Shown piece after piece: positions 14,216 through 16,097 of a stretch of 64,000 nucleotides of DNA. Below the pieces are notes generated by a model that worked only from the letters and a program-made list of their open reading frames with translations, was not told the DNA's origin and searched no databases. How positions within the stretch are numbered: position 1 is the first letter of the stretch; the number at the start of each line of letters is the position of its first letter. Both the position numbers and the translations under genes were made by a program. The stretch comes from an uncultured Dokdonia sp. (lineage in GTDB: Bacteria; Bacteroidota; Bacteroidia; Flavobacteriales; Flavobacteriaceae), in contig NZ_CALEMI010000157.1 of assembly GCF_937910895.1 (NCBI RefSeq), positions 1 through 64,000 on the forward strand, given 5' to 3'.

Positions 14216-15334
14216 ATGAGTTTAAGTTATTGGGAACATCAAACATGGCTATCTGCGATTGATTACACGATTGTAGGAAGTGGTATTGTAGGATTGAATG
14301 CTGCATTACGCTTACGCGAAAAATTTCCCAAGGCGCGTATTCTCATCCTAGAAAAAGGCATGTTACCACAAGGGGCTAGTACGAAAAATGCAGGATTTGC
14401 TTGCTTTGGAAGCCTCTCAGAAATTCTAGATGATTTGACATCTCATTCTGAAGAAGAGGTAGTGGCTCTTATAAAACAGCGTATCAATGGCTTGAAATTA
14501 CTCAGAGAAACCTTAGGAGATGGTACATTGGATTATCAAGAATTAGGCGGGTATGAACTTTTTACAGATCAAGATGAAGCATTGTATGAACACTGTTTGC
14601 AGCACATAGAAAAAATAAATGCATTGTTACATCCCATTTTTGGAGCCCCAGTGTATAGTACCAAAGAAAATACGTTTGGCTTTCAGCAGATTCAAAAGAA
14701 ATATATTTATAATGCGTTTGAAGGGCAAATAGATACTGGAAAAATGATAGATGGTTTATTGCAGCTTGCCCTCAGTAAAGGAATTAAAATTATGAATGGT
14801 GTGCGTGTGATTCGTTTTGAAGATCAAGAATCTCACGTAGAAGTGATTACCGATACATTTTCTTTACAAACCCATCAATTATTGATTGCCACTAATGGGT
14901 TTGCTTCTCAACTTGGTTTTCCAGAAGTAAAACCCGCAAGAGCACAAGTCTTGATCACAAAACCGATCCCTGATTTAAAAATTGAAGGAACGTTTCATTT
15001 GGATAAAGGATACTACTATTTTAGAAATATTAACAACCGAATTCTTTTTGGCGGCGGACGAAATCTAGACTTCAAAACCGAAGAAACTACAGATTTAGGA
15101 CAAACCGAGATAGTTCAAAGAGAACTAGAACGATTATTAAAGGAGGTGATTTTACCCAACACTTTTTTTGAAATTGATAGACGATGGAGTGGCATTATGG
15201 GTGTTGGCTCTCAAAAGAAACCCATCCTAAAATCTATTTCTATCCGAATACATGCCGGCGTCCGCTTAGGAGGCATGGGAGTCGCTATTGGCAGTCAGGT
15301 GGGCAGGGATTTGGCAGATTTGGCAAACAGATGA
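14216..15334 (+). CDS. FAD-dependent amino acid oxidase-like oxidoreductase (DAO family)
   Basis: 372 residues. The N-terminal dinucleotide-binding motif is DYTIVGSGIVGLNAALRLREKFP (GxGxxG), followed by the acidic ribose-binding ILEKG. The C-terminal FAD contact is GVRLGGMGVAIGSQVGRDLAD. Members oxidise amines or amino acids such as glycine or sarcosine. ATG 14216 gives a complete domain. The last 13 codons, SQVGRDLADL..., are copied twice more downstream at roughly 139-base spacing, each ending in a stop (see the repeat entry). The gene is not obviously in an operon. Substrate unknown. Confidence 0.85.
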   Translation: MSLSYWEHQTWLSAIDYTIVGSGIVGLNAALRLREKFPKARILILEKGMLPQGASTKNAGFACFGSLSEILDDLTSHSEEEVVALIKQRINGLKLLRETLGDGTLDYQELGGYELFTDQDEALYEHCLQHIEKINALLHPIFGAPVYSTKENTFGFQQIQKKYIYNAFEGQIDTGKMIDGLLQLALSKGIKIMNGVRVIRFEDQESHVEVITDTFSLQTHQLLIATNGFASQLGFPEVKPARAQVLITKPIPDLKIEGTFHLDKGYYYFRNINNRILFGGGRNLDFKTEETTDLGQTEIVQRELERLLKEVILPNTFFEIDRRWSGIMGVGSQKKPILKSISIRIHAGVRLGGMGVAIGSQVGRDLADLANR

Positions 15335-15616
15335 TTTTAGTTTGCTTTTATCCCATTACGGGAGTGGTTGTAATTTTAAAAAAGTAGCTTTTTGCACTTT
15401 TTTATAAATTACTTTCCGTCATAGTGTTATGGTCAGGTGGGTAAGGATTTAGCCGATTTAGTGAATGATTGATTGTTGTTTTTAAATAACCCATTATTGG
15501 GGGTAGTTATTCTTTTGTTTTTGTAATTTTTGGGACAAAAAGAAAAGAATTTTCTGTTACTTGGTTTCAAAGTCAGGTGGGGAAGGACTTGGCGGATTTG
15601 GTAGAAGGATGATTCG
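15295..15616 (+). repeat. Decayed tandem repeat (about 139 bp) of the oxidoreductase 3' end
   Basis: The segment TCAGGTGGG-AGGATTTGGC-GATTT begins at 15295 (within the gene), 15433 and 15573, spacings of 138 and 140 bases. Translated in frame the copies read QVGRDLADLANR-stop, QVGKDLADLVND-stop and QVGKDLADLVEG-stop. The spacers after copies one and two also share CCCATTA..GGG followed by GTGGTTGT or GTAGTTAT. Copies two and three have no start codon, so they are remnants rather than genes. They fill most of the 300-base gap before the GreA-like gene. Confidence 0.75.
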
Positions 15617-15635: not shown

Positions 15636-16097
15636 GTGATAGATAAACAAAAATTAAAAATACATTTACTTGAGAGATGCGTTGTGCAACTTTCAACGCG
15701 CCGCGCCGCGGTAGATAACATACTCGCTAATGTAGCGATATCACTAAAGGAAGAGACCAAAAGTTCGGCTGGGGATAAACATGAAACGGGGAGAGCCATG
15801 CTTCAGTTAGAACGAGAAAATGCAGGAAAACAACTCGCCGAAATAGAAAAACTAGAGGCAATTCTTCAACGTATTTCTTCAGACATATCTCCAGACCCTG
15901 TTCATTTAGGGAGTGTTGTGATGACAAGTCAGGCAAATTATTTTATCAGCATCCCTGTTGGAGAGATCAAAACAGAAGCGGGAGTTTTTTATGCAATTGG
16001 CATAGGATCTCCCATTGGACAATTGTTATTGGGAAAACGGGAAGGAGATGAGGTACGCTTTCGCGAAAGCGTACTTAACATTACCAACATTTATTAA
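15636..16097 (+). CDS. GreA/GreB C-terminal domain-like protein
   Basis: 153 residues from a GTG start at 15636. The N-terminal half is helical and could form the coiled coil of Gre factors. The C-terminal half has AIGIGSPIGQLLLGKREGDEVRF, close to the GreA/GreB FKBP-like RNA-polymerase-binding domain (SPLGRALLGKxxGDEV). Flavobacterial homologues are often mislabelled 3-oxoacyl-ACP synthase. The acidic tip residues of real GreA are not obvious, so it may bind RNA polymerase or ribosomes without cleavage activity. Residues VRFRESVL are made by a perfect 22-bp palindromic repeat copy (16053-16074), eight residues before the stop. Confidence 0.75.
   Translation: MIDKQKLKIHLLERCVVQLSTRRAAVDNILANVAISLKEETKSSAGDKHETGRAMLQLERENAGKQLAEIEKLEAILQRISSDISPDPVHLGSVVMTSQANYFISIPVGEIKTEAGVFYAIGIGSPIGQLLLGKREGDEVRFRESVLNITNIY
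16053..16074. repeat. Palindromic repeat, perfect 22-bp copy inside a gene
   Basis: Core CTTTCGCGAAAG at 16058-16069 with five matching bases on each side. It lies inside the 3' end of the GreA-like gene and encodes VRFRESVL. It shows that the repeat can be fully extended even when translated. Confidence 0.9.

Follow-up and report, generated by a model that had tools for sequence, protein, structure and literature searches.

A dispersed hairpin followed by copies of host gene 3' ends in Dokdonia

Background

Elements that integrate through tyrosine recombinases at att sites in the 3' ends of tRNA or other genes restore the end of the gene that they enter and move the old end to their far side. 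Target-primed elements have a precise 3' end and a variable 5' end. BOX, ERIC and similar families are short structured repeats that lie near genes and are sometimes modular; we know of no BOX/ERIC-type unit that includes a copy of a host gene end. Ready loss is expected of direct repeats that flank a palindrome. The R boxes of integrons have the sequences RYYYAAC and GTTRRRY. Integron attC sites are described as being known by structure more than by sequence (PMC2727003).

The arrangement described here lies behind a FAD-dependent oxidoreductase (DAO) gene of an uncultured Dokdonia sp. (the window, a 64,000-nt stretch of contig NZ_CALEMI010000157.1). A hairpin belonging to a dispersed family (H) follows the stop codon and is itself followed by a copy of the gene's end (E), twice in succession. 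We could match no known mobile element or RNA family to this arrangement. It formally resembles integration at gene 3' ends, and the H family fails the tests tried for integron cassettes, REP sequences, retroelements, IS91-like elements and classical transposons. A literature search of partial coverage, and thus weak as evidence, found no description of hairpins followed by gene-end copies in this way.

Results and Discussion

The DAO locus

The last 41 nt of the DAO gene, from GTCAGG to the stop codon, recur twice downstream (Table 1). The three in-register copies start at 15294, 15432 and 15572 (spacing 138 and 140 nt), and the two extra copies match the gene end at 30/41 and 33/41 positions. 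When the 366-nt downstream region is shuffled 1000 times with only base composition preserved, ungapped matches reach at most 25/41; elsewhere in the window, the best match on either strand is 23/41. The repeat described in the earlier note is thus real, and a chance origin of the copies is ruled out. Readthrough translation of the copies is also ruled out, as the two spacings are not both multiples of 3. Read by eye, the gene ends with QVGRDLADLANR before its stop, and the copies read as given in Table 1.

Table 1. Features at the 3' end of the DAO gene (window coordinates)
Feature	Position	Strand	Basis
Host gene, FAD-dependent oxidoreductase (DAO), 372 aa	14216..15334	+	ORF; Pfam PF01266, E-value 7.2e-35
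E1, last 41 nt of DAO including stop TGA; part duplicated downstream	15294..15334	+	Repeat family D1
Small hairpin TCCC-ATTAC-GGGA directly 5' of H1	15351..15363	+	Fold; sequence
H1, hairpin of the dispersed family (model span)	15363..15426	+	Model R1, 58.8 bits
12-nt tail from the CCGT foot of H1 to E2; overlaps the model span	15420..15431	+	Family median 13 nt
E2, first extra gene-end copy (QVGKDLADLVND, stop)	15432..15472	+	D1; 30/41 identical
Small hairpin CCCA-TTAT-TGGG directly 5' of H2	15490..15501	+	Fold; sequence
H2, second hairpin of the family (model span)	15502..15564	+	Model R1, 73 bits
13-nt tail from the foot of H2 to E3; overlaps the model span	15559..15571	+	Sequence
E3, last gene-end copy (QVGKDLADLVEG, stop)	15572..15612	+	D1; 33/41 identical
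Next gene, GreA/GreB C-terminal-like	15636..16097	+	23.4 bits, under the Pfam cut-off of 26.9

The spacers between the copies had also been noted to share sequence. Each contains one hairpin of the same family; what had been missed is that these hairpins also lie behind other genes, most of which have their own end duplicated. A search of the window's own genome with the DAO region finds part of the second spacer on other contigs, and several of these recurrences have constant feet, differing stems and the end of the local gene repeated alongside. The H1 stem type is also present at the DAO locus of two other genomes (G002 and G013), and a stem similar to that of H2 is found behind another gene group. 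The earlier note had named the finding of these units as a repeat dispersed at unrelated loci as something that would refute its reading. The outcome is divided: the hairpin spacer is dispersed, and the gene-end copies are locus-specific.

E3 is read as the native DAO end in its native context. Its post-stop similarity (0.40) is at background level, and 23 nt separate its stop from the next gene (assuming a GTG start); in G017, which has no H at DAO, 22 nt lie between the DAO stop and the same next gene. This GreA/GreB-like gene is found 3' of DAO in 11/11 Dokdonia regions compared. The boundary of the E1 copy falls within approximately 2 nt of the same place in four Dokdonia species, and H is present at 3/80 DAO loci taken from named genomes, all three in Dokdonia. 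At the DAO loci of G013 and G015, an extra ORF with no Pfam match lies between the H array and the GreA-like gene (L027 9673-10125 and L029 8154-8603). A small C/G hairpin is often found directly 5' of H, both in the window (Table 1) and at several loci from other genera. By eye, it includes or adjoins the basal-helix G's, such that a switch between two pairings is possible.

Structure of the hairpin

H is approximately 60 nt long. Between its feet, GGGTGGTTGTT first and AACTTTCCGTT last, lie an AT-rich stem, modelled with 16 pairs, and a short loop. It was searched for both with a pattern and with a covariance model (R1) built from 18 hairpins. In a profile of 99 H, sequence conservation is limited to the feet, GGGTGGTTGTT and AACTTTCCGTT(A/T)C. 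Among 130 distinct H, in an alignment fitted to model R1, 94.6% of stem cells are paired, with a covariation score of 0.565, compared with 0.151 for shuffled and at most 0.165 for slid alignments; double changes occur in 15 of the 16 stem pairs. The first 18 H, aligned without structure, give a score of 0.552 (0.181 when shuffled). The basal helix GGUGG/CCGUU covaries also, from G-C to A-U in 8 and from G-C to C-G in 8, and the two wobble pairs within it persist in 124 and 129 of the 130 H. On the opposite strand, these conserved G.U pairs would become A.C mismatches. The folded form is therefore likely to be the sense strand, and the pairs suggest that a sense-strand transcript (or single strand) is what is recognized. 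These alignments show H to be base-paired, with feet that are conserved and a stem that undergoes compensating changes. No known RNA family accounts for it: in Rfam scans of the window (gathering threshold) and of seven loci (E-values up to 1), only tRNA reached the gathering score.

Distribution of H

At least 171 H are present in the genus Dokdonia, 138 of which were read in 72 loci (75 clusters); of these, 99 were used in the profile, 106 in the cross-gene test and 84 in the boundary list. They occur in at least 8 of 18 Dokdonia genomes, with none among the matches listed in the other 10. Numbers per genome are at least 28 in G000, 37 in G002 (D. pacifica DSM 25597), 8 in G003 (D. sinensis SH27), 5 in G010, 14 in G011, 18 in G013, 56 in G015 and 5 in G017. 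Arrays of H stand at contig ends in G015 (C7, C16, C24, C26, C27 and C31), G000 (C8) and G017 (C2), so that the real arrays may exceed their assembled length; H arrays probably contribute to assembly breaks.

In the Flavobacteriaceae, H matches, some of them weak, are found in at least 13/299 genomes and at least 10/236 genera. Two of the 13 are Dokdonia, and hairpins are readable at 7 of the other 11; in G093, G211, G295 and G300 the core pattern found no hairpin at the match, and these four are unconfirmed. Among 395 Bacteroidia genomes searched with stricter filters, the window's own genome is alone among the matches listed. IMG/VR gave 0 matches to the exact pattern GGTGGTTGTTN{22,50}AACTTTCCGTT in a search from which near-identical records are possibly absent, and phage carriage of H was rejected on this result.

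Several host genes are shared between genera. H is found behind a TPM-domain gene ending GGGASGGW in G029, G091 and G301 (two other genera; the Dokdonia TPM-domain gene belongs to PF04536), and G259 has copies of the TPM gene end at a contig start. In G173, H lies behind a gene whose end (...YKLIC) matches that of a D. pacifica response regulator (PF00072). The use of the same host genes in other genera suggests either preferred sites or horizontal spread. In G095 and G079, H lies behind tRNA-Gln genes. The G095 locus (L246, 1546-1956) has the tRNA-Gln gene and one complete H, then approximately nine tandem 45-bp units in which the H feet are kept and the stem is lost. At L246 and L247, the bases just 5' of H resemble, by eye, the 3' end of tRNA-Gln in reverse complement.

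Anatomy of the unit

Of the 75 clusters, 69 are far enough from the start of their locus to be testable. In 65 of these, the end of a sense ORF (80 codons or more) lies 0-80 nt (median 25 nt) upstream of the first H, a situation found at 6.4% of random positions, coding positions included; an antisense ORF ends within 80 nt downstream of H in 9 clusters. A gene-end copy with a score of at least 36 lies behind the first H in 55/69 clusters, compared with 1.6% of mismatched loci (a control that contains some orthologous pairs), and the other 14 have no copy at this score. Across 84 H, the tail between the CCGT foot and the start of the copy has a median length of 13 nt (quartiles 11.75 and 15), and the repeated part begins anywhere from 24 to 174 nt before the gene end. 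No conserved motif was seen in the tail or at the start of the copy in the 99-H profile and the 84-H boundary list. Orthologous loci have the copy boundary at approximately the same position.

Similarity in the stretch from stop to H is high for inner copies (median 0.92, n=40) and lower for last copies (median 0.54, n=33; p 0.002 against inner copies; background 0.42), which as a group still exceed the background (p 8e-13). Twenty-two of the 33 last copies score below 0.8 and 11 score at least 0.8. On these scores, about two thirds of the most distal copies are followed by unrelated sequence, and most last copies have the look of the native gene end. In the G010 gene with a VWA domain (PF13519), the stop of the last copy abuts a possible start codon (TAAATG). 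At four loci (L095, L101, L110 and L127), an H is seen by eye to be fused, at the tail distance typical of the family, into another H's stem (joined-H tails of 68-71 nt), which fits a one-sided event.

Two loci have additional features. At L128 of G015 (619-1572), an Abi_alpha ORF (PF14337) is flanked by two H units, with 4 nt separating its stop from the second H; it is possible that this is a cargo gene of a unit. The host gene there is fatty-acid-desaturase-like, and its ortholog in L133 belongs to PF00487. At L137 of G003 (around 1527), H stands behind an intrinsic-terminator-like sequence, 162 nt past the nearest ORF end, and the terminator-like sequence is partly repeated behind H.

Evolution of the copies

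The 68 H-bearing genes fall into 30 groups, 19 of which are common to at least two genomes. When H are compared between genes, 41 of 5268 pairs are at least 0.8 identical, versus 2.7 expected under a null in which 14 nt of the arm are shuffled and the loop is kept. By this measure, H types recur behind different genes.

Differences between gene and copy at codon positions 1/2/3 number 50/47/231 (89 pairs), and those between copies 37/27/136 (59 pairs); these counts come from the 68 clusters whose ORF has 80 codons or more, 52 of which have a detectable copy, and the pairs are not independent. Copies outside the ORF thus change mainly at synonymous positions. The coding look that had been remarked on in the DAO copies is supported: the copies evolve like coding sequence, with changes mainly at third codon positions. 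The description of the DAO repeat as decayed holds only in part, as the copies largely follow the gene's own synonymous changes.

At equal sites, the gene end and last copy of one genome are closer to each other than orthologous pairs are in 29/32 comparisons, with 1 opposite and 2 ties, after the omission of 9/41 pairs for register shift. The test includes 15 gene groups with several pairs per group; its list is without the TPM, desaturase and L103/L134 groups, and FabH gave no pair. This result indicates that gene ends are homogenized while boundaries and H are inherited, and that the copies evolve in concert with their own gene. At the VWA locus, G000, G002, G010, G011 and G017 keep H and nearly the same copy boundary, and their stems are altered yet still pairing (by eye). 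H is absent from this locus in G004, G007, G008, G012, G014 and G015; the last of these has H elsewhere, and H was presumably lost from its VWA locus. This comparison covers 15/16 loci scanned, with G001, G003, G005 and G016 left unread because the search pattern did not pick up their gene end.

Enzyme candidates

Several enzyme families were searched for in the 18 Dokdonia genomes. A REP/RAYT origin was rejected because the Y1 transposase (PF01797; 4/18) does not track H and is absent from G002 (37 H) and G015 (56 H). Derivation from a retroelement or group II intron was rejected because RVT_1 (PF00078; 7/18) is absent from these same two H-richest genomes; a reverse transcriptase may have been lost or be very distant. 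An IS91- or Helitron-like origin was rejected on the Y2 transposase (Y2_Tnp, PF04986; 1/18), and an IS110-like origin because Transposase_20 (5/18) does not track H. Integron cassettes were rejected on the H feet, which are not R boxes, and on the integron integrase (TIGR02249), matches to which exceed the cut-off in 0/18 genomes. Other tyrosine recombinases give TIGR02249 matches below the cut-off in 18/18 Dokdonia genomes and 14/14 controls, and it may be that a tyrosine recombinase other than IntI is the enzyme. No free donor molecule was seen in the material searched.

Comparison with described systems

H resembles integron attC sites in having conserved feet and a variable, covarying stem, and H units resemble cassettes in that they follow stops in the sense orientation, form tandem arrays and, at L128, include a foreign gene. 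They differ in their feet, in the lack of an integrase over the cut-off and in their repeated payload, which is the neighbouring gene's own end. Like REP, REPIN and BIME sequences (RAYT/TnpA-REP), H are short dispersed intergenic palindromes with a conserved foot; however, H arrays carry host gene-end copies at nearly fixed spacing and may have different stems within one array, and Y1 is lacking in the two richest genomes. Gene-end copies also set H apart from BOX and ERIC, and H is below Rfam gathering in the scanned set.

There is also a formal likeness to elements that integrate at gene 3' ends, and the suggestion in the earlier note of att-like integration fits the arrangement: its right edge is nearly fixed, similar units stand behind genes of 30 groups, and the native-looking end is mostly distal. 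The ORF ends in the first copy and the native-looking end is displaced, as seen in the 23 nt behind the last DAO copy (22 nt in G017) and in the 22/33 last copies without strong post-stop similarity; two H loci of other genera lie behind tRNA-Gln genes. The differences are that the direct repeats at DAO enclose only approximately 100 bp containing H and no integrase (at L128, the Abi_alpha ORF between two H is a possible cargo gene), and that many unrelated gene ends share one hairpin. An analogy with CRISPR can also be drawn, in that an array is built unit by unit with one component that varies and another that repeats, but what repeats in H arrays is the end of the host gene itself, which is coding-like and locus-specific. 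Classical transposons differ in making target duplications of constant length; the repeat in H units starts anywhere from 24 to 174 nt before the gene end.

Proposed model

Our preferred reading, which is a tentative one, is that the DAO locus may consist of two tandem copies of a dispersed, non-autonomous unit. Such a unit would comprise E (the last part of the host gene with its stop), a short 3' UTR, the approximately 60-nt H and a further 13 nt or so; we infer the mechanism, and no enzyme for it was found. A unit would enter the 3' end of a gene by a one-sided event. Its right edge would be set by H, approximately 13 nt past the hairpin foot, and its left edge by homology of E to the resident gene, such that the end of the ORF would be re-created and the old end pushed downstream. 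The donor could be DNA or cDNA that was copied from a gene end and is capped by the hairpin, for example from another strain. Direct repeats around the hairpin would then recombine, changing the number of units and homogenizing E, and this recombination would put any copy back in coding position often enough to produce coding-like evolution. Recombination of an H-capped unit would be the simplest account of the H-set right edge, the variable left edge, the native-looking distal end and the shared H types. Against this reading, the entry step is unobserved and orthologous loci share the insertion by descent. The negative results for enzyme, donor molecule, tail motif and IMG/VR also count against it, as do the 14 clusters without a copy, the last copies with strong post-stop similarity and the recent amplifications of whole units.

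The main rival is plain tandem duplication, in which replication stalls at a 3'-UTR hairpin, the new strand slips back into the gene end and the E-UTR-H block is doubled; decay of the distal unit follows, the E copies stay alike through recombination and no mobile element is needed. Such hairpin-driven duplication probably occurs in some arrays, as there are recent whole-unit amplifications in L096 (149-bp unit), L112, L127 and L143, and seven of the 11 last copies with strong post-stop similarity have an H-like foot (for example at L054, L097 and L138). It is rather unlikely to be the general explanation. Alone, it does not produce the DAO array of G002, in which E is nearly identical (95% over 78 columns) and H unrelated; it also leaves unexplained why one H type stands behind different genes, the likeness of most last copies stops at the stop codon, and direct repeats around H persist across species. 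An enzyme supplied in trans (a transposase or retroelement) could instead insert UTR, H and tail at or just after stops with a long, variable target duplication (24-174 nt). The nearly fixed right and variable left edges, the recurrence of H types behind different genes and the patchy occurrence of H agree with this idea, which we nevertheless consider improbable: RVT_1, Y1_Tnp, Y2_Tnp and Transposase_20 do not track H, and a duplication made at one locus should begin as identical copies, yet the copies differ mostly synonymously.

It is more doubtful than probable, by a wide measure, that H is simply a regulatory or stabilizing RNA of the host 3' UTR under selection, with the gene-end copies a side effect of repeat instability. 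Strong covariation of H and the retention of H with changed, still pairing stems in five genomes at the VWA locus would be expected of such an RNA, but the six sister genomes without H at that gene would not, and neither the gene-end copy some 13 nt past H nor the similar H behind the same genes in other genera is explained. Finally, the earlier note had proposed a shrunken array of paralogues or repeated gene replacement. Copies in coding register with mostly synonymous changes would suit either, as an account of the DAO locus by itself. There is, however, exactly one match to this oxidoreductase in each of the 18 Dokdonia genomes, and the pattern recurs at unrelated genes, with a dispersed family in which genes of 30 groups share the hairpin. 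Paralogue remnants and replacement of the whole gene are thus extremely unlikely, and replacement can be retained at most for the 3' end.

The recombining H-capped unit may belong to a novel class of mobile units that carry the host gene's own 3' end as their payload and leave the ORF intact. In this tentative proposal, H would act as RNA or single-stranded DNA to define the end of the copy and write it into the same gene of other cells, and the stack of gene ends would perhaps be upheld by recombination.

Conclusions

Even on modest readings, H is a structured element of at least 8/18 Dokdonia genomes for which the partly covered literature yielded no earlier description. Its edge at approximately 13 nt and its covarying hairpin make the enzyme that recognizes it directly searchable. 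If the proposed model is true, these genomes would harbour a genomic parasite or module that avoids damage to its host, because any gene receiving a unit also has its end rebuilt. Past gene ends would then be recorded next to the gene, and non-coding copies would be held coding-like by recombination.
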